From a virus, in the IMG/VR virus record IMGVR_UViG_3300043409_000558, positions 1 through 25,881 of that record: a stretch of DNA of 25,881 nucleotides; one strand, 5' to 3'. Below, piece after piece: positions 3,539 through 18,801 of this stretch. Every line of letters begins with the position of its first letter. The stretch's first letter is position 1. Both the position numbers and the translations under genes were made by a program. The notes under the pieces were generated by a model. It was not told the origin of the DNA. It saw only the letters and a list, made by a program, of their open reading frames with translations, and searched no databases.

Positions 3539-3877
3539 TTACCAATCAGAATTCTTTTTGCCCTTTGATGCTGTAGAAACACCGCAAGCTCCAAGATTAA
3601 TTTTCCCACCAGTGGTGTAACTTTTCTTGGCCGCTCCACCTTTTTTATACATTGCCGTGTTTGGTGGTGAGCTACCACCACCACCACCCAAAGCACTTTG
3701 GGCTTGTCCAATAGCATTACCAATCGTAGAAGCTCCAGAATTGACTTGACCAAGTCCGTCTTGCGCGCTACCGCCACCGCCACCCAAACCTTTGCCGCCG
3801 GGATTAGGCATTGGCACTGTAGGCGTGTCAGATGGACTAGGATCCGTCATTCCGCCAAGTGTTGCAATTGATGTCAT
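3539..3877 (-). CDS. Gly-rich small protein with KKGG-type motifs, unknown function
   Basis: 112 residues, ATG at 3877 with AAAGGA eight bases upstream, the AAAGGA being built from the upstream gene's stop codon. The protein is low in complexity: a Pro/Ser/Thr-rich start, two poly-Gly runs (residues about 32-36 and 65-69), then a basic tail with the motif pair MYKKGGAAKKSYTTGGKINLG and the end KKNSDW. These Gly-Gly motifs resemble those of the 447-residue protein and the large polyvalent protein nearby. I do not recognise a folded domain. Position between head-region genes suggests a minor virion or assembly protein, which is inference only. Confidence 0.65.
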   Translation of the reverse strand: MTSIATLGGMTDPSPSDTPTVPMPNPGGKGLGGGGGSAQDGLGQVNSGASTIGNAIGQAQSALGGGGGSSPPNTAMYKKGGAAKKSYTTGGKINLGACGVSTASKGKKNSDW

Positions 3878-3887
3878 TTTTTTTCCT

Positions 3888-4325
3888 TTACCAGTTAGAC
3901 TTTACTTTGCCGCCAGCTTTAAATGGCGCAACTTTTCCTTTGCCAATTTTTTCTGACCACTCTTTGCGATGACTTGCGGCCTTGTCGGATGCGCCACGTT
4001 TTTCGGCATGTTCAGTAAAATTGCGCAGTCGGTTTGACTCACCGCGGCGTTGCAAGCGGCCCAATTGCTTTTCAGACTCTGCAGTTTTTCCAGAGGCTTT
4101 TGCAATGTCAAACATTTTGCGATTAGCAGTAAGTTTATTTACAAGTTTTTTGCTTTTGTGTTGTTGAGTGCGAGTCATTTGACTAGCAGTGTCATCGCCA
4201 TCATCGTCCTCATTACCACGAGGGTCGCCAATAGCTTTGTAATAATCCACATCACTGTCGTAGTCCATTGGATTTGTGGACATTGCACGTCCACCCATGG
4301 CTTTTTTTGATTTGATGTGTGTCAT
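3888..4325 (-). CDS. basic protein of unknown function, structural module
   Basis: 145 residues. ATG at 4325 lies two bases after the upstream stop; a longer frame exists upstream but has no better start signal. The N-terminus contains KKAMGGRAMS, followed by an Asp-rich acidic stretch, then a Lys/Arg-rich helical half (QHKSKKLVNKLTANRKMFDI, then LQRRGESNRLRNFTEHAEKR). It ends APFKAGGKVKSNW, combining the Gly-Gly-X-Val motif with a Ser-X-Trp end shared with the next two genes. High charge and helix content suggest nucleic-acid binding or a packaged internal protein, but no known family is recognised. Confidence 0.65.
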   Translation of the reverse strand: MTHIKSKKAMGGRAMSTNPMDYDSDVDYYKAIGDPRGNEDDDGDDTASQMTRTQQHKSKKLVNKLTANRKMFDIAKASGKTAESEKQLGRLQRRGESNRLRNFTEHAEKRGASDKAASHRKEWSEKIGKGKVAPFKAGGKVKSNW

Positions 4326-4327
4326 GA

Positions 4328-4732
4328 TTAGTTGTACCCTTTGGTCATCTCCAAAATGCACCAATAAGTGTCGCCAGACGAAGCATCAGCCGTGCTAAAC
4401 ACAATGTCGCCAGTAACGCCAGTTCCGCCGTTGTTGGTGATACCACCAAAAGCGCTCATGTCAAGCGTTTGCGTTGCACCGGGCGACGACAGAAAGAACG
4501 GCACATCGGTTGTGGCATCCCAAAACATTCTGACTTCCATGCCGTGGTTGGCAATGTAGATTTTGGTAACCGTTACTCTGGTACAAGTTTGCCCAGAAGC
4601 GCTAGGGTTTAACGCAGAAACGTCTACCTTCAAAACCGCACTTTCACCAGTGCCATCACTGATGTTTGTAAATTTCATAATGACCGTGCGCTCACCATCA
4701 ATAAGCGTTTGGCTCGTAACTGCATCAGCCAT
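4328..4732 (-). CDS. small conserved phage virion protein
   Basis: 134 residues, ATG at 4732 with GGAG six bases upstream, just after a terminator. The start MADAVTSQTLIDGERTVIMK and the segments FTNISDGTGESAVLKVDVSA and VRMFWDATTDVPFF match a small beta-rich protein family I recognise from many environmental tailed phages, normally encoded among head and neck genes. It may be a decoration, neck or fibre-base protein; the precise role is unknown to me. The whole protein looks like one beta-sandwich, without signal peptide or membrane segment. The terminator just upstream suggests this gene and those after it are expressed at a lower level than the capsid genes or from a separate start. Confidence 0.68.
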   Translation of the reverse strand: MADAVTSQTLIDGERTVIMKFTNISDGTGESAVLKVDVSALNPSASGQTCTRVTVTKIYIANHGMEVRMFWDATTDVPFFLSSPGATQTLDMSAFGGITNNGGTGVTGDIVFSTADASSGDTYWCILEMTKGYN

Positions 4733-4775: not shown

Positions 4776-6119
4776 TCAGCACATTGCTCTTCCGCCGCTC
4801 CGTTTAGGCGCTACAGTAACTGATTTTTCAGTTTTTGTAACGCTACCCGCTGGTGCTGGCTTGCTAGTAAAGTAATCCTTCATCTTTTGATAACCCTCTT
4901 TGGCCATACTCAAAGGATTCAGCGCCTCTTCAAGCTCACGGCTTGCTTTGTCTGTAATCACTTTGGGATCGCCAGTTGGGGTAACACGAGATTCATTTTC
5001 ATACTTTTTTGCTTCGCCACCATTTTGGTAACGGTTTAATTGACCCTTTGCGGTGTCATGCGCGTCTCCTTTGTCATCCGTGTGGTAGTCGGCATCTTTG
5101 TAATGCTTACCCTTTGGATCAAAAAATTTGACTCGATGCTCACCGTAATCTACGTCTTTATAAACTTTGGCAACGTGACCCTTCGGGCCTGTATGGGTCT
5201 TCAATAAACGCAAAGGAGTGGAACCCCCCCAAGTGCTAGTTCCACCCTTAGCCTTTTTTGAAACTTCTCCGCCATCCTTAAAAGTACCAGAAACACGATT
5301 AGTGCTTACAGGAGACGAAACTGGCTTTTTGGGCATCGCGACGGGTTTGCCTGTATCAACAGTTCCCCCCGTCGCGTAGGCTTTTTTTGTTGAACCACCC
5401 ATCTTGTAGCCGCCACCGTTGGCTTTTTTTACGCCACCAGTGGTGGTGTTGGTCACGCCGGGTTTGGCCGTATCAGCAGGGCGGTTTTCCCAATTGACGT
5501 TTCCGCCATCTTTAAAACCCGCGCCGTTACCCATCCTGACGCCACCAGTGCCGCCTTTGGCTTTAGAACCATGTTCAGCGGTTCCTATGTCACCATTTAA
5601 ATACTTGCCTGCGTTGCCTTTGATAGTGCCGCCGTTGGCATAGCCACCTGCATTACCCATCTTGACACCGCCAGTACCGCCTTTTGACTTAGAACCGTGT
5701 TCAGCAGTTTCCATGTCAGTGTTTACGTACTTGCCAGCATTACCCTTGACAGTAGTTTTTGCCATGGATGCAGTAACACCGCCGCCATCAGCAAACTTCT
5801 TACCAGCCATAGCCTTCTTGATCATTTTGCGATCTTGAGCGGCGTCGTCATGCATCTCAGCTTTGCCACCTTTTTTGGCCATCATCATAGGGTTCATCAT
5901 TTTGGGGCTCATCGCTTTACGACGAGCCATCATTGACGGACGCTTAGGTGCCATGCCCATTGGGGCACTTGCCATTGCTGGTGCTTGAGCAGGCATAGTG
6001 GACTGCATAGGCATGTAACCGCCGTCTGCTTTTTTCTCAACTTTGCCGCCCTTTTTAAGCTTCAGAATTACTGAAGGCTCCGTGGTCATCATTTTGACCA
6101 TTGGTTTGAATTGGCCCAT
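4776..6119 (-). CDS. Met- and Gly-Gly-rich repeat protein, structural module, unknown function
   Basis: 447 residues, ATG at 6119 with AAGGAG six bases upstream. A Met-rich stretch (residues 36-80) and about ten Lys/Ala-X-Gly-Gly-X motifs (for example KKGGKV 22-27, KKGGKA 82-87, ADGGGV 110-115, KDGGNV 203-208, ATGGTV 249-254, KDGGEV 281-286, QNGGEA 365-370) dominate the sequence. Residues 123-164 and 165-206 are a 42-residue tandem repeat (30 identical), with a decayed third copy to about 252. Residues 312-362 look folded, with HVAKVYKDVDYGEHRVKFFD and DADYHTDD, a short module I associate with other aquatic phage proteins. It follows the capsid cluster and is followed by a terminator. It may be a virion-internal or surface protein; no enzymatic motif is seen. 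Confidence 0.7.
   Translation of the reverse strand: MGQFKPMVKMMTTEPSVILKLKKGGKVEKKADGGYMPMQSTMPAQAPAMASAPMGMAPKRPSMMARRKAMSPKMMNPMMMAKKGGKAEMHDDAAQDRKMIKKAMAGKKFADGGGVTASMAKTTVKGNAGKYVNTDMETAEHGSKSKGGTGGVKMGNAGGYANGGTIKGNAGKYLNGDIGTAEHGSKAKGGTGGVRMGNGAGFKDGGNVNWENRPADTAKPGVTNTTTGGVKKANGGGYKMGGSTKKAYATGGTVDTGKPVAMPKKPVSSPVSTNRVSGTFKDGGEVSKKAKGGTSTWGGSTPLRLLKTHTGPKGHVAKVYKDVDYGEHRVKFFDPKGKHYKDADYHTDDKGDAHDTAKGQLNRYQNGGEAKKYENESRVTPTGDPKVITDKASRELEEALNPLSMAKEGYQKMKDYFTSKPAPAGSVTKTEKSVTVAPKRSGGRAMC
5502..5753 (-). repeat. two tandem 42-residue repeats in the Gly-Gly-rich protein
   Basis: Bases 5628-5753 and 5502-5627 encode consecutive 42-residue units starting TVKGNAGKYV and TIKGNAGKYL and sharing TAEHGSK and KGGTGGV. 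Thirty of 42 residues agree. Both units end in a Gly-Gly pair, so the motif marks the unit boundary. Confidence 0.85.
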
Positions 6120-6129
6120 GTTGTTCTCC

Positions 6130-7107
6130 TTATGCTTGTGTGACGCCAAGAGCGCCAGCACGGGTTGCATTCGGGCCTGCCGCAATTGCTGGCAGGGCTA
6201 TCCCCATCACGAGGCGCTTGATGCCGTCACAAGCCGATGAGGGCAAATAAGTACCCCTCACATCGCCCGTGGTTGTGGTGGCTGTCAAAGTGGCGGCGGC
6301 GGCAAAAGTACCAGCATCTTCTGCTAGAGTGTTATTCCAACCAGCGCGAGTGATGTATCCAGCATCAGTGATGCGCAGTGGCGCACCCAAGATGTCGGTT
6401 GTACCCACCGCAACGGTTACCACGCTTGCGCCAGAGGCGGTAACACTGGCAATTTGGTAAAAAGCTTTTTTACCATTGACGGTTGTTGATGCTACTGCTC
6501 CTGTTGCAATTACTTCGCTCATGGCCTGACCGTAGTAGTCATAGCCAGAGACGGTAATGTTGACAGTAGTTGGAGAGCCAGCGCCTGTAGTTGTAGATAC
6601 AGCACGAGGACAGTCAAGTTGCAGACCTGTACCACCACCAGTAATGGTTGTTGATGTAACACCAGCACCTGCGGCAAGCGTGAGCGTGGTAGCAGTTGTG
6701 ATAACAGCGGCAACAATGTTGGTTGTCACTTTTGCTTGTGGTACAGCGTCCCAAATATAAACGCGCCCTAATGGGCCAACGCCTACGCTCATTGGAGATG
6801 GGTTTTGCAAAAAAGCATTACCAGAACCAACGATGGTGGAGCTTGCTACAGTTTGTGAGGCGCTTACGGTGTAAGTGCCAATACCGCCAGAACCCGTACC
6901 CAAAGCGGTAATGTAGGTTCCGTTGGTGAGTGAAGTTGAACTGTCAATAAACATACCCACAGTAATTGGGTCACCCGAAAGCATCTCGGTAACGGTCAAT
7001 GTAGTGGAAGCAATTGAACCAGTAAAAGTTGCAACAGCAGGGTATTGATCTGTACCCTGAGTCGTAATAGCAGTACCTAAAAATAGGTCGTCGGAAAATT
7101 GAGGCAT
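6130..7107 (-). CDS. phage structural protein downstream of the capsid gene
   Basis: 325 residues, ATG at 7107 with AAGGAG eight bases upstream; the longer open frame upstream runs through the terminator and is not used. The protein starts [20 protein letters not shown] and is made of Thr/Ser/Gly/Ala-rich beta-type sequence without Cys-rich or catalytic motifs. The segment [20 protein letters not shown] (about residues 62-81) is a pattern common in virion proteins of large environmental phages. [16 protein letters not shown] follows. Directly after the major capsid protein it is probably a head-associated or fibre-type virion protein. Ten bases separate it from the next gene. Confidence 0.7.
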
Positions 7108-11185: not shown

Positions 11186-13687
11186 TCATACTCCTTGGGG
11201 TCGAGGCATTGGCTCGGGTGGTGGTGGTGGCGCTGACATCGCAGGCGGTGCCTTTGGTGCGGGTGGTAGCGCAGGGGGTTGCTGTGGAGTTGCCGCCACA
11301 TCATTCGCATGTTGAATCGTTTGGTGAGTCAACTTTGAATTTTCAATATCGATCTTGGTTTGGTTATCCATCGCATGCTTTTGCATATCTGCCTGCAATT
11401 TGGCTTGATCGTATTGGATATCCGCTTGGTCTTTTGCCGCACGTCGCTGAGTTTCTGCCATGCTCGTATCGTGGACAACTTGTGCATCAGGCGGCAATGT
11501 TTGCTTGGCTTGTTGTTGACGCTTCTGAGCTTGCTGAATCAATTGCTGGAATGCAGGCGCAAACTGTTGGAACGTATCTTGTACATCCAAGTTTACATGG
11601 GCACCAACTGTGGCATACATCTGGTCAATCGTTGCCGTCAGCCTTGGATCATCATAGTTATCTACAGGTTTTCCACCGCGGGTTTGAGCCACATAACCAT
11701 TAGAACGGTTCAAGTACCACAACGTCATGTGTTGCTTGATGTGCTCGATTAAATGGTTGAGGTAACTTGGATCTGCAAATGGCGACTGGCCCAAGAATGG
11801 GTTTAAGCCAAATTGCAAGTGATCCTGAATGTGCGCAATGTGATCTTGTTGCATGTACGCATAGGCAGGCTGGCCAATCAGCATGGCCGCGTTTTCATCA
11901 GCAGAGGTGCGTTGTTCAGGCGCAGGCACATCCTTCATCAATTCATTAATGTTGGGCACCTTCATCTGCTTGAGTGAACGAGACAACACAGCGCCCATGT
12001 TGAACTGGTCAGGGTGCTTTTCCGCCAACTGCATCACAGCCTGCATCTGGGCCATGCGCTGTGTCTCAGAGAAGATGTGCGGGTCAGACACTGGCACAAC
12101 GTCCGTGTTCTTGGCAAAGTCTTGGCGATTGATATCCAAGTCAACCACCACATCAGACTTGCGCATATCGTCAAAGTGCCAACGGTTCAATCGGCAAAGA
12201 ATTCTTAAAACGCGTGCTTGGCTTTCGTGCAGTCGCGCATGAATAGCGCTAAACACCGCGGCCCCTTGTTCAATCAGAGCCTGCGTGGTGCCCACAGGAG
12301 CCTGTGCAGACACGTCAGCGATCTTTTCTTCGCTGGTGGTCACTACCCCCTTAGCCGCGGTATCAAGCCAGCCTAGGAGCTTAAATAAGACCTCGCTGGG
12401 TGGGTTGAACGGCATGGGCATGGCAATCTGGCGAATATCGGAAACGCCGGGTGCGCCCTCGATCTCCACAATCTGCGTCACTTCCACTTGCTGGCTCTGG
12501 CCACTAATCTTTGCTCCTTTGAGCTTTAGCATCGTGGCCGCGTTGTTAATGTGAGCCGAATCCATCAAGGCACGCAAAGCACCCGTCAAAGCCGCACTGA
12601 GTCCACCAATTAAGTGGGGGAGGCCAATTGCATATGCACCACGCCACGGAATAAATTTAAACTCCACGATCCAATCTAACTTGGTCATCGTGTCGTCTGT
12701 TTCCTCCCAATTGCGATACAGGCCAACAACCTCGTTGTCTAACTCGTCAATCATCAGGATGTACGGAGCCATCTCGCCCTTGCTGTACTCGTCCTCTTCC
12801 AATTCTAAGAACGCGTAGATGTGATACACCTTGCGCAGGCCATCGCTGTTGTCTTCGTACTTCTTGCCTTCAATCTTGTCGTTGGCTTTTTGCGCTTTGG
12901 TTGGCTCGACTTCCGTCGTTGCCTTGACTAGCGTAACGTCACGGTACATGCCGCTGGTAATCCGACGATTAAACTCCCAGTGCGTAATCTCGTGCATCTC
13001 AGCGGCACGTTCTGCGGTGTAGAAATTACTGGCCGCAAAGGGCAATATTACTCTGTCAATTGGCAAGAACTCCACGCATGGGCGCTTCTTCTGCTCGTCA
13101 AACCATAACTTAAAGTATTGCGATCCACCCAAAGGCAATTGCGTCAGCATCTGCTCTTGCTCATCACGGAACTCTTGTATCTGCTCCGTAATCTGCCAGT
13201 TCAAGTAGTCACGCTTGCGCTCAGCACGATCAGCTTTAACGTCGTCCATCTTGCCCAAGATTTTTGTACGTACAGGGCCATCAGGTGGAAACATTTCTTT
13301 AATTGCACGAGCGGCAAAGTCAACACAACCCTCAGCCATGGCCGGGTGCACAACTTTGCTGGCACCCATAAACGTTGCACCACCGGGGGCGTCGTTGCCC
13401 ATACCAGTGCGCTTGATGCCCTCTTCGTACTGCTTGTCACGTTGTTCGCGTGCATCCTTATCGCTCTTTAGCAAATCGATATAACGACCCGACATCGACG
13501 TCAATTCCATAGGGTCATACGACTCTGCCATGTTGGCGTAGAAATCTGGATTGACCTCTGGGCCATCATCCTCAACAGTAACAATGGCACTGCCGTCTGG
13601 CTGTTCTTCCGTCTGCATCTCAGGCAGATCTACAACCGCGCTACCGTCTTCGTTCTCAGTAATCTGTGGGTCTAATTCATCCATCAT
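11186..13687 (-). CDS. portal protein
   Basis: 833 residues, ATG at 13687 overlapping the stop of the upstream large gene (ATGA). Portal proteins form the dodecameric ring at the packaging vertex and dock terminase. The acidic N-terminus carries DGSAVVDLPE (14-23) and a second form DGSAIVTVED (31-40). The core follows podovirus-type portals: NDAPGGATFMGASKVVHPAM, GGSQYFKLWFDEQKKRPCVE, a wing domain, FKFIPWRGAYAIGLPHLIGG, then LTGALRALMDSAHINNAATM and VTTSEEKIADVSAQAPVGTT. From about residue 600 on, the C-terminus is Gln/Ala-rich helix, expected for the barrel, ending in a Pro-rich tail. The length fits a large podovirus portal with barrel extension. Confidence 0.85.
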   Translation of the reverse strand: MMDELDPQITENEDGSAVVDLPEMQTEEQPDGSAIVTVEDDGPEVNPDFYANMAESYDPMELTSMSGRYIDLLKSDKDAREQRDKQYEEGIKRTGMGNDAPGGATFMGASKVVHPAMAEGCVDFAARAIKEMFPPDGPVRTKILGKMDDVKADRAERKRDYLNWQITEQIQEFRDEQEQMLTQLPLGGSQYFKLWFDEQKKRPCVEFLPIDRVILPFAASNFYTAERAAEMHEITHWEFNRRITSGMYRDVTLVKATTEVEPTKAQKANDKIEGKKYEDNSDGLRKVYHIYAFLELEEDEYSKGEMAPYILMIDELDNEVVGLYRNWEETDDTMTKLDWIVEFKFIPWRGAYAIGLPHLIGGLSAALTGALRALMDSAHINNAATMLKLKGAKISGQSQQVEVTQIVEIEGAPGVSDIRQIAMPMPFNPPSEVLFKLLGWLDTAAKGVVTTSEEKIADVSAQAPVGTTQALIEQGAAVFSAIHARLHESQARVLRILCRLNRWHFDDMRKSDVVVDLDINRQDFAKNTDVVPVSDPHIFSETQRMAQMQAVMQLAEKHPDQFNMGAVLSRSLKQMKVPNINELMKDVPAPEQRTSADENAAMLIGQPAYAYMQQDHIAHIQDHLQFGLNPFLGQSPFADPSYLNHLIEHIKQHMTLWYLNRSNGYVAQTRGGKPVDNYDDPRLTATIDQMYATVGAHVNLDVQDTFQQFAPAFQQLIQQAQKRQQQAKQTLPPDAQVVHDTSMAETQRRAAKDQADIQYDQAKLQADMQKHAMDNQTKIDIENSKLTHQTIQHANDVAATPQQPPALPPAPKAPPAMSAPPPPPEPMPRPQGV

Positions 13688-16600
13688 TTAGCCTTCTTTG
13701 ATTTGCGGCTTAATTCTAAGTTCATGATATCCATATTTGTGGATAGGTTCACTTTGCCGCCTTTTTTGTAACCCAAGCGCTTCTTCATTGCAAGCTCGTA
13801 TTCGCCCATCTGATTGATGTATTGCTCATCGATTGGCTCACGAATAATGTTCATCTTTGCTTGGTTGAACGGAACAACTTTCTTGCCCATCCGCGCAATC
13901 TCTTGTCTAGCATTGTGCATTGAACGTGGTGCCAAGATATCGGCAGGCGTAGTGTAACGAGTACGTCCCACTAATTTTGATGGTATGTCGTGACCATACG
14001 TCGGGTGAGGGGAAATGCTTTCCTTCAAGCTACGGTTTGGATCAAACTTAATGATTGACGATCCGCCTGCACCAGTCTCAATGTCGCGCAACTCAGGATG
14101 GCTAATTGCATAGATGATGTCATCTAGCTTTTGCTTACCGCCAGCCATGTACTTCTCTTTGCCCAGCATGCTAATAATTTTCTTGCGCATGCCTGAATTA
14201 AACGGCGCTTGCAATCTGATGTCCGACGGATTTTCAAAACCGGGAAAGTCAGGATAGGGCTTGTCATTCTTGTTGGTGGTCAACTTTACATTGCGCATTA
14301 AATGGTTAAGTTGCTCAATTTGCTCTTTAGGCAACTTGTGCGGCTGATGGTGCGCTAACACTGAGTCCAGCATATGCACTGCGTGATACAACGCCTCTGG
14401 TGACATCTTGTGGTAGTGGCCATAGACATCCATCTCAGGATTATCTTTAGCCAAACGCTTCACCACGTTAAACATGCCTCGGCTGGCACCCAAGTCACTT
14501 GCCCAGCCAGCAGGATGGCCATAGGCACCATAGTCTTTGCCACCGTACAAACCAACAGGTTGCTCCAAAGTTTCAAAGCCAATTGATTTGAGATACTCGC
14601 CTGCTTCAGGTGATTCCATATTTGAATTCTTGCTGGGCATTACGCCACCGCGGCTTGTGTCACCGGGTACGCCTACCGAGTACGAACCCTTCAGGTTTCC
14701 GTAATCAATGATTGGCGTCTCATTCTTCTTTGAGCTTTCAATTCCAACTTGCAAATCCTTTTCACGCGCTATCTGTTGCAGTGTCTTACCCGTTGGGTTT
14801 TCTTGTCCAGAAGTTTGACGCGCCATACGCTCAGCATGCGCCTCAATGTCCGCCTTACTTAATGTTGGCGATGGGCCGTAGTACAAGGGCTTTGCAGGCT
14901 TTGCTGGCTTAGCAGATCCACCCTTGGCATACACCTCACGCTTGCCGTACTTGGGATTCTTGGCCAGCACCAACGGGCCAATCTGCACAACGTGCTCAGC
15001 ATGGGTAATGGGTTCCATCGTCTCGCGGTCATAGAAGTCACCATGACGGCGTGGGTCGTAGCCCACCTGACGATAATCAGGGTGATTAAAATACTTCTGA
15101 AAATGCTTGACAGCCTGATCTTCAGTCATGTGCTCGAGATCACCTATGATCTTGGCAAATGGCGCTTTGTTCTGCTCGCCAGTAGCCACGCGAACCGCTT
15201 TGTGTGGCGAGCCGTGGAACTCAGCATTGCGCACTGAGGAGACGGGGCCGTAGGACGTTGCAAGTTTTTTCTCGCCGCCTGACTCATCATGTACAGAATT
15301 TACCCACACACCATGATCTTCATATGCCGGGATGTCCAACCTCAAACCAACGCGGTGGCCAGCAGGCCATGACTCATGACCACGCCATTTTGCTTTCTTC
15401 GGCTCATGTAGTGCGCGCATTGCGTCTTTATCAGTGGCAGGCTTGGGAATGAACTCATAAGGCTTGACAGGCTTTTCTTTGGCCACAACCTTGGCATACG
15501 CCTTTTGCTTCATGTCGCCTTCCATCAAGGCACGAGCCGCGGCTTCAATCTTTGGGTTACGACGTGATGCCTTGTCATCAAACACAGTAGGGCGCACGTC
15601 AACTTTAGGCGGTTGCCCACCATCTTTTAACAATTTATCATCATTGATATCAAATGGGGCATTGTTGTCAGGCATCCAAGAAACCGATCCACCATCAGCC
15701 ATCTTAGGTGGCGCTTTGGGTGGCGTCATGGCGTTCATAGCCTGCCCTTGTGGCGTCATCTGTAAGATGTTGCTTGGCGCTTGTGGAGGAGGCGCTCCAC
15801 CACCCAATGGGGAAGGCATGCCCTGTTGCTCTGCGCCCTGCGGTGGCTGGCCTTCTGGTGGTTGCTTAGGCACCAAGCTCTGAGGTAGCAACTGATGCCC
15901 CTCCTGTAATTGGCTCATGTCAACACCGCCAACTGGCATTGGACTGCCATCATTCTTGGGCGGCAGATATTCTTTGATATCCATGTTAGGCGCTTCTTTA
16001 GCCCCTATCTTTGTCATATCTGAAAGTGATGTGGGATTCTTAGTGGCCAACTCAGCGCGCATTTCATTGACTGATGGCACAGCACCGCCAACCGCCTTCT
16101 TGATCACATTGGGCGTCAATGGGTGCATTTTCTTGCCAGTCTTCTCTCGCACGTAGTAAGCGTTGTGGCCAGCCTTGCGCATGCCCTGCTGGACTCGTGA
16201 GTCTTCCAAATACTTATGGGTACCCGCTGACAGCATCTCGCCCATGTGCTTATGCACGTCAGGGATCTTGTTGAAATCTTTGTGCTTGGCAACATGCCCA
16301 GCCACCGACGTTACGTGCTCAGGGTTCTCATAGTCGAATGGATTATTCACATCGCCTCCTTCAGCGTATCCGCGCATGGCTTTAATAATGTCATTGTGCG
16401 TTGTTTGATTATTACCCGAGGCATCCCATACTGCATGGTGTGCCAAGTGTTGGTAGTGCGGTTGCATGGCCGGGTCTATCTTTAGATTCATGGCCGACTG
16501 CCTTGACGCTAATCGATCTACGGCTTCACGAGCCCCTTGACCTTTGCCTCGATTCATGATAGAGCCAATGCCAACATTTGCAGGCAATGAATGCAGATTT

Positions 16601-17343
16601 AATTGGCGCGCATCGAGCGTCGGCAGATCGCCACGGCCAAGCATCGATCCAATGAATCCAGACTTTGCCCCGGCCACACCCTTCATCTTCTCCGCAAAAT
16701 CGCGGTAGTCATCCTTCGACCCGGTAATCGCTTGGTTCAATTTCCGCGACATGGCAGGCATGTTCTGAGCCGCATAGATCATCTGGTCTGTCAATTGATT
16801 GTGCTTGCCAAACGGCGCGAATTTCTGTCGTATGTCATTAAGTGCAGGCTGATGCACCATACCGCGCTCTGCCGCGTTTAAATAGTTCTGCCCCATGGGT
16901 GACCCCAGCCATTCAGCAAAGGCACCTTCTGGCCTCACCTCGTCGCCCGTGTTGGGTAGCTTCATGCCAGTCTTGGTGGCCGTAGCATGGGACAGCCCAC
17001 CGCGTCCAATGCTAGATTGTGTGATGGTGAATGCCTTCAGCAAGTCTCGTGGTGTCAGCCCCGCCTCTCGCGCTCGAGCCAATTGCTGGTTCATGAACTC
17101 GCCATAGTTCTTCTGAACGTAGTCGGGCACCTCGATGATAGGCATGTCCTTGCGGACGTCCTGCATCTTGCGCCACTTCCAATCTTCAATCTTTGTCGTC
17201 TTGGGATCGCGATACTTAGAGACGTCGCCACCACCCTTCATCAACGAAAGGCGCATCATATCCATGTCTGTTGGTGTTTCCACGGCTATTCTTTCATTGT
17301 GGTATGCATGGATTATGCCTTCGGTAATGCGGTAAGTCCACAA
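13684..17343 (-). CDS. very large polyvalent-type phage protein between terminase and portal
   Basis: Up to 1219 residues. The start is unresolved: TTG at 17343 (GGA nine bases upstream) gives the longest form, GTG at 17283 or ATG at 17265 are alternatives without good Shine-Dalgarno. Residues 60-325 hold one domain with FAPFGKH and AKSGFIGSMLGRGD then PTLDAR (226-246), recalling the helix-hairpin-helix plus Asp arrangement of HhH-GPD glycosylases. Residues 490-550 are a Pro/Gln linker. Residues 653-800 (GHRVGLRLDIPAYEDHGVWV, RHGDFYDRETMEPI, IGPLVLAKN) and 873-1140 (YSVGVPGDTSRGG, YAISHPELRDIETG, HPTYGHDI) match regions of giant polyvalent phage proteins. Gly-Gly motifs punctuate domain borders. 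Such proteins are thought to be injected with DNA. Overlaps the portal by four bases. Confidence 0.75.
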   Translation of the reverse strand: MWTYRITEGIIHAYHNERIAVETPTDMDMMRLSLMKGGGDVSKYRDPKTTKIEDWKWRKMQDVRKDMPIIEVPDYVQKNYGEFMNQQLARAREAGLTPRDLLKAFTITQSSIGRGGLSHATATKTGMKLPNTGDEVRPEGAFAEWLGSPMGQNYLNAAERGMVHQPALNDIRQKFAPFGKHNQLTDQMIYAAQNMPAMSRKLNQAITGSKDDYRDFAEKMKGVAGAKSGFIGSMLGRGDLPTLDARQLNLHSLPANVGIGSIMNRGKGQGAREAVDRLASRQSAMNLKIDPAMQPHYQHLAHHAVWDASGNNQTTHNDIIKAMRGYAEGGDVNNPFDYENPEHVTSVAGHVAKHKDFNKIPDVHKHMGEMLSAGTHKYLEDSRVQQGMRKAGHNAYYVREKTGKKMHPLTPNVIKKAVGGAVPSVNEMRAELATKNPTSLSDMTKIGAKEAPNMDIKEYLPPKNDGSPMPVGGVDMSQLQEGHQLLPQSLVPKQPPEGQPPQGAEQQGMPSPLGGGAPPPQAPSNILQMTPQGQAMNAMTPPKAPPKMADGGSVSWMPDNNAPFDINDDKLLKDGGQPPKVDVRPTVFDDKASRRNPKIEAAARALMEGDMKQKAYAKVVAKEKPVKPYEFIPKPATDKDAMRALHEPKKAKWRGHESWPAGHRVGLRLDIPAYEDHGVWVNSVHDESGGEKKLATSYGPVSSVRNAEFHGSPHKAVRVATGEQNKAPFAKIIGDLEHMTEDQAVKHFQKYFNHPDYRQVGYDPRRHGDFYDRETMEPITHAEHVVQIGPLVLAKNPKYGKREVYAKGGSAKPAKPAKPLYYGPSPTLSKADIEAHAERMARQTSGQENPTGKTLQQIAREKDLQVGIESSKKNETPIIDYGNLKGSYSVGVPGDTSRGGVMPSKNSNMESPEAGEYLKSIGFETLEQPVGLYGGKDYGAYGHPAGWASDLGASRGMFNVVKRLAKDNPEMDVYGHYHKMSPEALYHAVHMLDSVLAHHQPHKLPKEQIEQLNHLMRNVKLTTNKNDKPYPDFPGFENPSDIRLQAPFNSGMRKKIISMLGKEKYMAGGKQKLDDIIYAISHPELRDIETGAGGSSIIKFDPNRSLKESISPHPTYGHDIPSKLVGRTRYTTPADILAPRSMHNARQEIARMGKKVVPFNQAKMNIIREPIDEQYINQMGEYELAMKKRLGYKKGGKVNLSTNMDIMNLELSRKSKKAK

Positions 17344-17348
17344 CCTGC

Positions 17349-17373
17349 TAGTTCCATACCCGGTATGGAACTA
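17349..17373. other. 25-bp perfect palindrome over the terminase large-subunit stop codon
   Basis: TAGTTCCATACC (17349-17360), one central C, and GGTATGGAACTA (17362-17373) are exact inverted repeats. Bases 17371-17373 are the terminase stop codon. No T-run follows on either strand, so it is not a standard terminator. A protein-binding site or an RNA hairpin separating two genes in the same frame are the likely options. Confidence 0.85.
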
Positions 17374-18801
17374 AGCCGCATATGGATTTCCTTTGCGCTT
17401 CTTGTTGTGCTCGTCGGCATCGAAGATGTCATCGTCGTCGTAGTCGTCCCGCGGTGGAATATCAATGCTGATCCAGCCATAGTCGCGCAGGTATCTGAGC
17501 CCTTGGCTGATGCAGTCAACGAACTCGTCATGCGCCGTCTCAGGGAACGAACAGATCTGCGACACCATGCCCTCAGCCCAGTCACGCACGTAGCCGCGCT
17601 TCTTGCCGTGCTCTGGCACCCACACTCTTCCAGCTTTGATAATGTTAGCAACAATGCTAAGTCTCTGGGTCTTGTCGGCCCTGCCGGGGTTGTACCCGAA
17701 CACTGGCAAGTGAGCACGCTCCAAGTCCTGAATGAGCGAGATACCCGCGGCTTTGTCCTCCACCAGCAGTAAGTCCACGCGTTTCTTTTCCTTGCCTTCG
17801 CCGTACACCACCTCGTACTCTTCAATGATCTTGGGCCGCAGGTCTGGATACGTTAGCTTGTCCTGCCAGCAATCGATCACCATGACGCACATACCGCCGT
17901 CTAGGGGCTTGAAAGCACCAAGGGTGATACATCCAGTAGGGTCGTTCTCTTTGCCGTCCTTGTAGCCGCAATCGTAGCTCTGGATGATGTACTCAAAGCG
18001 TGGGAATGGTTTGCCGTCTGGCCACAGTCTGAACCAGTCACGCTTGACGATGCCGAACTCCTCACCGTCCAGAATTTCTGCGTGGATCTCTTGCCGTCCC
18101 AAGCGGGTGCCTTCGTACTGCAGGATCTGCTTCTGGAAGCTCACCGCCAAGTTTTTCAGGTTGTCATACGTGCTGGCGCGTGTGATCACCACATCGTCGC
18201 CTTCACGCTCGATCAGATTAAGCACCACTTCCTTTGGCTTGGGCGTGGTGGAGCATATGAGCTTAGTGCGCTTACCCAGTCGGATGCCGAATTGAATCAT
18301 GTCCCACGATTCTTGCAGGTAGTCCCAAGCGGCCAACTCATCGAGCCACCCGCCATGGAACTGTGGGCCGCGGAAGCGATCAGGCTCCGACGCCGGGATA
18401 CCCTTGATGAACGAGCCATTGATCAGCTTGATCTCGTGCAGTGCCTTGTTGTAGTCGGCCACCAGTTCTTTGGGGATTACGTTGAGAAGCCCTGAGTCGC
18501 CCTCAAAGCAGGTGCCCTTCACGTCACCGCTAGTAGGCGCGCTAACGAGCCAGCGTGTGTTGGGTTGCTCCCATGCCCACATGGCCAGCGTCTCAGCCGC
18601 CGCTCTGGTCTTCCCGGCACCACGGCCAGCCAGCATGAGCCATATGTTCCACCATTCACCTGCAGGCTCAATCTGGTGCTTGTGTGCTTCACTGCTGAGC
18701 CAGCGTAACTGCCAGTTGATGACGATCTGGTCTATTAGCGGACTGTTAGCGAACTCCTCACTGATCTGTGGGTCAGCAAGGATCTCGTCGAGGACACTCA
18801 T
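17371..18801 (-). CDS. terL: terminase large subunit (packaging ATPase and nuclease)
   Basis: 476 residues, ATG at 18801 overlapping the small-subunit stop (ATGA). The ATPase domain has Walker A AGRGAGKT (58-65), Walker B GGWLDEL with Asp154/Glu155, and the coupling segment STTPKP (184-189). The RNase-H-fold nuclease has SYDCGYKD (Asp277), VEDKAAG (Glu348/Asp349) and HDEFVD (Asp425 and Asp429). It pumps DNA into the prohead through the portal and cuts the concatemer. The LAGRGAGKTRAAAE form recalls GTA-like and other headful packaging terminases, although the packaging mode cannot be read from this alone. The C-terminus is acidic then basic (DDYDDDDIFDADEHNKKRKG). Its stop lies within a 25-bp palindrome. 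Confidence 0.93.
   Translation of the reverse strand: MSVLDEILADPQISEEFANSPLIDQIVINWQLRWLSSEAHKHQIEPAGEWWNIWLMLAGRGAGKTRAAAETLAMWAWEQPNTRWLVSAPTSGDVKGTCFEGDSGLLNVIPKELVADYNKALHEIKLINGSFIKGIPASEPDRFRGPQFHGGWLDELAAWDYLQESWDMIQFGIRLGKRTKLICSTTPKPKEVVLNLIEREGDDVVITRASTYDNLKNLAVSFQKQILQYEGTRLGRQEIHAEILDGEEFGIVKRDWFRLWPDGKPFPRFEYIIQSYDCGYKDGKENDPTGCITLGAFKPLDGGMCVMVIDCWQDKLTYPDLRPKIIEEYEVVYGEGKEKKRVDLLLVEDKAAGISLIQDLERAHLPVFGYNPGRADKTQRLSIVANIIKAGRVWVPEHGKKRGYVRDWAEGMVSQICSFPETAHDEFVDCISQGLRYLRDYGWISIDIPPRDDYDDDDIFDADEHNKKRKGNPYAA

Follow-up and report, generated by a model that had tools for sequence, protein, structure and literature searches.

We analysed a 25.9-kb virus record (IMG/VR IMGVR_UViG_3300043409_000558; 25,881 nucleotides), referred to in its whole length as the window, in which an uninterrupted frame of 1219 codons (17343..13684) lies between the gene for the terminase large subunit (TerL; 17371..18801) and the gene for the portal protein (11186..13687), all three on the minus strand. 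The flanking genes were identified by library matches (Terminase_6N, E 4.5e-24, for TerL and phrog_1216, E 1.8e-22, for the portal), and the TGA of the intervening gene and the portal ATG form a four-base overlap, as the initial annotation of this DNA had stated. Further downstream are genes for a GroES-like co-chaperonin, a probable scaffold and the major capsid protein (Phage_capsid_4 / Mu gpT type). We refer to the intervening gene as the cargo gene and to the interval between TerL and portal as the slot. The cargo gene encodes a chain of modules that related phages exchange as units, and its possible delivery with the virion is the subject of this report.

A chain of modules exchanged at junction peptides

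The cargo protein consists of five modules in the order D1, D3, core C, D4 and D5, and at least three of them (D1, D4 and D5) were confidently modelled as globular units in one polypeptide with the core. Following an N-terminal tail with the junction helix PTDMDMMRLSLMKGGGDV (17227..17283), module D1 (residues 40-332; 16348..17226) is all-helical and weakly resembles HhH-GPD DNA glycosylases in fold, with a hairpin KGVAGAK (G222, K227) and a catalytic-type Asp (D244). Next come D3 (residues 327-415; 16099..16365) and the Pro/Gln-rich core C (residues 416-560; 15664..16098), which ends in SNILQMTPQGQAMNAM...KMADGGSV. D4 (residues 590-806; 14926..15576) is related to phrog_586 and Phage_L5_gp82, D5 (residues 807-1195; 13759..14925) falls into three subfamilies with 23-30% identity, and the chain closes with a C-terminal tail that carries the junction helix STNMDIMNLELSRKSKKAK (13687..13758). 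Relatives encode every module, many at 60-98% identity, and the frame is therefore no chance open reading frame (ORF). The two modules previously placed at residues 653-800 and 873-1140 proved to be the cores of D4 and D5, whereas D1, D3 and C had been missed.

To describe the variation of the slot, we gathered about 250 related loci by scans based on TerL, D4 and D1, built profiles for the five modules and applied them to 163 distinct complete ORFs, which displayed 65 different module architectures. In the 96 distinct complete TerL–portal slots (35 of them drawn by TerL similarity alone), the flanking genes were conserved, while the modules of the window and unrelated ones were gained, lost and reordered; slot length ranged from 678 to 7461 nt, with the cargo carried on a single ORF or on a few. 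The initial annotation had suggested looking for single modules swapped within the slot, and such swapping was thus strongly evident. For TerL and portal genes that were each at least 80-85% identical, a median of 37% of the slot could be aligned; individual pairs with at least 80% identity in both flanks shared as little as 0-10%, and some shared nothing. For example, L001, a near-twin of the window, and L099 shared 27% of the slot at 88% identity in TerL and 87% in the portal, and flanking genes therefore predict slot content poorly. A search for plasmid relatives returned none; relatives of D1 on short contigs binned with genomes of Burkholderiales and other Betaproteobacteria provide a weak hint of the host.

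Neighbouring modules are joined by a recurrent junction peptide, [YFM]AxGGxVxPSxxQMRxEL. In the window protein, module boundaries are marked by six sites of the [YFMK][AK]xGG type, all on the minus strand: MKGGGDV at residue 35 (17221..17241), YAEGGDV at residue 326 between D1 and D3 (16348..16368), the variant KAVGGAV-PSVNEMRAEL at residue 416 between D3 and C (16078..16098), MADGGSV at residue 548 at the end of C (15682..15702), YAKGGSA at residue 805 between D4 and D5 (14911..14931) and YKKGGKV at residue 1192 at the end of D5 (13750..13770). Two further GG matches, at residues 469 and 1065, lie away from these boundaries. Across the whole set, 67% of alignment ends fell within 10 residues of an AxGG junction, compared with 16% at random positions, and among recent exchanges (at least 85% nucleotide identity) the corresponding values for breakpoints were 65% and 14%. 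Conversely, a breakpoint was present within 12 residues of 74% of AxGG sites, 21% of other GG sites and 17% of random positions; shared ancestry means that the counts are not independent of one another, but the preference for AxGG over other GG sites is a fair internal control. A stretch of the form P[ST][IVL][DE][QE]M[RK]x[EA]L followed within 22 residues of GG sites (20% versus 4%), many slot ORFs began with related stretches, and many ended with DxMRLELxxKKxK.

We also considered the junction as a site of DNA recombination and rejected it, since third codon positions at junctions were barely more identical than at random (0.39 versus 0.35). Synonymous positions are almost free, indicating that it is the peptide of the junction that is maintained, and not a crossover site in the DNA. 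In an AF2 model of residues 590-1219 (mean pLDDT 91), pLDDT dropped below 50 in three places only: the extreme N-terminus, residues 806-814 around the YAKGG junction, and about residues 1195-1211, starting three residues after the YKKGG junction. Downstream of the capsid gene, sites of the [YFMK]xxGG type were also observed in three late ORFs, 4776-6185 (13 sites), 3888-4364 (2 sites) and 3539-3877 (4 sites), and the junction peptide is therefore not limited to the cargo slot.

Folds and named domains in the slot

The D1 model (mean pLDDT 90.3) was compared with the Protein Data Bank (PDB) using Foldseek, and nearly all of the top 12 matches were HhH-GPD DNA glycosylases, at E-values of only 0.1-0.5. 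The OGG2 structures 3knt and 3fhg were among them (probability 0.94-0.98, target-normalised TM 0.61-0.62), and the TM range over 3knt, 3fhg and 1pu7 was 0.47-0.62. In addition, all 61 distinct D1 copies retained a hairpin-K-17-[LF]DARQ signature; the hairpin mostly read GI[GA]xAK and otherwise a close variant, and in some copies PGIGPAK. At this signature, inspection of sequence and secondary structure indicated a helix, hairpin, helix, loop, Asp and helix. The order of helix-hairpin-helix and conserved Asp is that of OGG2, MagIII and EndoIII, and the spacing of 22 from the first hairpin Gly to the Asp equals that from the first hairpin Gly to the catalytic Asp in EndoIII. The PDB matches and the retained signature argue against an unrelated helical bundle with a fortuitous resemblance, an explanation that would be compatible with any account of the slot and that we regard as quite possible. 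Besides the weak E-values, it is favoured by the position of the D1 Lys, one residue after the usual lyase Lys, and by the sequence comparisons: neither sequence nor profile of D1 matched PF00730, OGG2 or Nth/MutY significantly (hhalign probability 0.1-0.2% for OGG2 and Nth/MutY), and the OGG2 profile alignment, which placed the hairpins and the Asp residues together, was not significant and scored similarly to a D4 negative control. We therefore describe D1 as glycosylase-like without assigning it to the HhH-GPD family; as such, it might act on DNA bases.

Module D4 gave the only library match of the window protein, phrog_586 at residues 682-786 (E 4.4e-7), and reached 19.5 bits against Pfam Phage_L5_gp82, below the cut-off of 27. 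Sequence searches of the PDB with D1, D4 and D5 yielded nothing significant, and no solved fold in the PDB matched the confident models of D4 and D5 (best probability 0.06). The search of folds by domain that the initial annotation had proposed thus disclosed no ordinary enzyme in D4 and D5, and D1 resembles DNA glycosylases only weakly. The refuting case put there, a fold match to an ordinary enzyme combined with absence from virions, was accordingly not supported by the folds. Against BFVD, the D4-D5 model matched many large phage proteins, including some named ART-PolyVal-like, PcfJ-like, Zeta toxin and lysozyme, as well as short proteins that stand alone in Bacillus phage Staley and in a Streptomyces phage. 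D4 differs from phrog_586 and Phage_L5_gp82 in being a module within a long chain. One BFVD match, from a Flavobacterium phage, bore the name 'structural protein'. Literature searches turned up no proteomics for Flavobacterium phage elemoC or for Roseobacter phages that carry D4, and the label was therefore not used as proof. Cultured relatives bearing a module of the window protein include the Roseobacter phages CRP-207 (gp58) and CRP-9.

Named domains were common among the other slot proteins. Pfam recognised ART-PolyVal in 25 of 89 slot representatives, GP88 in 15, ASCH in 8, PcfJ in 7, LPD23 in 3, GNAT and DUF3990 in 2 each and a GDSL lipase in 1, to which PHROGs added ParB-type nucleases, a giant family named endolysin and a transglycosylase. 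NCBIfam recognised the AcrIF11 anti-CRISPR ADP-ribosyltransferase family in 2 of 59 cases, one of which (L067; G431:C1:4932-5357) scored 60.9 bits, above the cut-off of 50, and the second below it; PADLOC defence models matched none of 30 slot proteins. ART-PolyVal shared an open frame with D1, D4 or D5 in six relatives (L002, L005, L039, L087, L092 and L110), and the named domains of relatives were often fused to these modules. The window protein is thus polyvalent-type by association and is not filed as a proven member, and any effector role is assigned to it by association only, since the named domains occur in its relatives and not in the protein itself. The earlier description of it as a polyvalent-type multidomain protein accordingly stands for the slot, where relatives carry ART-PolyVal, LPD23 and PcfJ, and not for the named domains of this one chain.

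Polyvalent proteins are the nearest described class, and those with the same domain families have been predicted to be packaged (Iyer et al. 2017, PMC5512222). Like them, the slot proteins are large multidomain phage proteins encoded with terminase and portal genes, the window gene lying next to virion genes in a terminase-portal phage, and the relatives bear ART-PolyVal, LPD23, PcfJ, GNAT and ParB nuclease domains. They differ in that variation here is concentrated in one fixed TerL–portal slot, whose proteins have a near-universal core and a recurrent junction peptide. Cassette-like recombination was raised for a Verrucomicrobium locus in that study (PMC5512222), and text searches of it found no such slot or junction.

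Start site and upstream region

The frame opens at TTG 17343, immediately upstream of a promoter-like site, TGGACT-N17-CATAAT (17312..17340, minus strand), the single match of its type in the whole window. We therefore place the likely start at GTG 17283, downstream of this site, a position equivalent to the translation start AAGGAATAGCC-GTG in the relatives L023 and L099; AAAGAA precedes the GTG in the window and AAGGA in these two relatives. Judged from the sequence, the true cargo gene probably extends over 13687..17283 (last sense codon 13687; stop TGA 13686-13684) and encodes 1199 amino acids, and TTG 17343 is probably not used in the cell. The length of 1219 residues reported initially is thus correct for the open frame and probably too long for the protein; our residue numbers follow the longer form, and those of the likely protein are lower by 20.

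Of the 96 slots, 26 carried a site of the TGGACT-N17-CATAAT type no more than 330 nt from the TerL stop, compared with a background of 0.005 per 360-nt stretch over all loci, making the slots about fifty times richer. The suggestion that gene position would ensure late synthesis is weakened by this conserved site immediately upstream of the gene. The promoter-like site is also what would be expected of a moron-type accessory gene, one with a promoter of its own whose product would act in the infected cell by superinfection exclusion, counter-defence or host takeover and never be packaged, with the core and junctions serving stability or host targeting. This is the main rival to a cargo role, and the presence of host-modifying enzymes in the slots and the variable presence of modules are consistent with it. 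The fixed place between TerL and portal in TerL-related phages and the translational coupling to the portal gene, which support a cargo role, argue against it, as do the similar GG linkers in the late genes described above. On balance, we consider a moron-type gene unlikely.

A perfect 19-bp inverted repeat, TTCCATACC-G-GGTATGGAA (17352..17370), separates the TerL stop from the promoter-like site. Short perfect palindromes of 14-23 bp also follow the TerL stop in relatives (for example, L035, L044, L077 and L013), and arms of at least 7 were present in 33% of slots compared with 3-5% in controls. The palindromes vary by phage, with 22 distinct arms, some of them repeated, such as TTACTAGTTTAACTAGTAA. 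An Rfam scan of the window gave no match. Many relatives (L003, L004, L005, L013 and L035-L044) carry a small ORF of about 70-85 codons between TerL and the cargo, and the promoter-like site is not present there. In L053, the match to TerL (774-2716) extends over 1943 nt for 474 residues, which suggests that the terminase gene holds an insertion such as an intron or a homing element.

The core and a possible route into the virion

Every one of the 35 complete slots that TerL similarity alone had drawn contains core C, as do 74 of the 96 slots overall. Its C-terminal pattern is SNILQMTPQGQAMxAM...MAxGGxV, and its composition suggests that it may be disordered. Because the core is retained while all else is exchanged, it is the best candidate for an address that would tie the chain to the particle. 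A near-universal Pro/Gln-rich core beside the portal gene could also belong to a true structural or assembly protein (an internal core, portal-vertex or scaffold-like protein) decorated with variable modules that have no effector function, and the Flavobacterium phage match named 'structural protein' points in the same direction. In the L053 slot, however, the gene shrinks to a 215-residue ORF consisting of core C and a short tail only, and ADP-ribosyltransferases (ART), including the AcrIF11 type, and ParB nucleases are enzymes and not structural domains. We consider such a structural role very unlikely.

We lean towards the reading that the cargo gene encodes a polyvalent-type, probably virion-delivered protein of interchangeable modules. 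The slot and its variability, the modules, the junctions, the core and the association and fusion with polyvalent-protein enzymes in relatives are observed, whereas docking, packaging, ejection, cleavage at GG sites and the activities of the modules are inferred. In this scheme, the slot would encode independently folding modules linked by flexible junction peptides around the Pro/Gln-rich core, and the chain would be made with or near the products of the head genes. The core and junction peptides may dock it inside the procapsid or at the portal; the chain, whole or cut at GG sites, would then be packaged in the head and exit with the DNA, and after entry its modules could act against host defences or adjust the host and the incoming DNA. 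Since modules are exchanged as units at junctions, each phage would bear its own set of host- or DNA-directed activities. Several observations weigh against a cargo role: neither Pfam nor PHROGs recognised a named polyvalent domain (LPD or ART-PolyVal) in the window protein; core C was not recognised in 22 of the 96 slots, those of the more distant relatives; matches to the AcrIF11 family were rare; the promoter-like site also suits a stand-alone moron gene; and the window genes scanned included no recognisable head-maturation protease, which makes cleavage at GG sites speculative. More tentatively, the slot may function as a cargo bay, in which a protein-level junction code (AxGGxV-PSxxQMRxEL) and a core able to load any module would allow delivery of, among others, a glycosylase-like module and two folds unseen in the PDB.

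Such a cargo would work like the Dar proteins of P1 (DarA, DarB and DdrB) and the Alt and internal proteins of T4, which are packed in the head and injected to act against restriction or to modify the host (PMC5512222). No sequence relation to these proteins was detected, and they do not form a reshuffling chain in a TerL–portal slot. In its working, the slot also resembles polymorphic toxin and Rhs-type cassettes, which combine a conserved carrier with exchangeable effector modules; it differs in being phage-encoded, with junction-delimited modules on both sides of the core and variation that is not confined to the C-terminus. Limited literature searches, which are not proof of absence, retrieved no description of the slot or the junction. 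As far as we have searched, the fixed TerL–portal slot, its near-universal core, a protein-level junction supported by breakpoint statistics and two confidently modelled folds that have no relative in the PDB appear to be new.

How accessory phage proteins are loaded into heads, and how fast such payloads change, is poorly understood. A conserved carrier with dozens of natural arrangements makes the packaging address and the role of each module in entry directly testable. The slot also constitutes a catalogue of candidate counter-defence proteins, given its ART-PolyVal domains, the two AcrIF11-family matches and many modules of no described family.

Two observations were made elsewhere in the window. 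The N-termini of the portal protein (13687) and the probable scaffold (10305) share a peptide of the form E-x-DGSAVVDLPE, which may be a signal for docking or processing common to both. At positions 1-1716, a tail-fibre-like ORF with long collagen-like GYSGxSG repeats runs off the window end.

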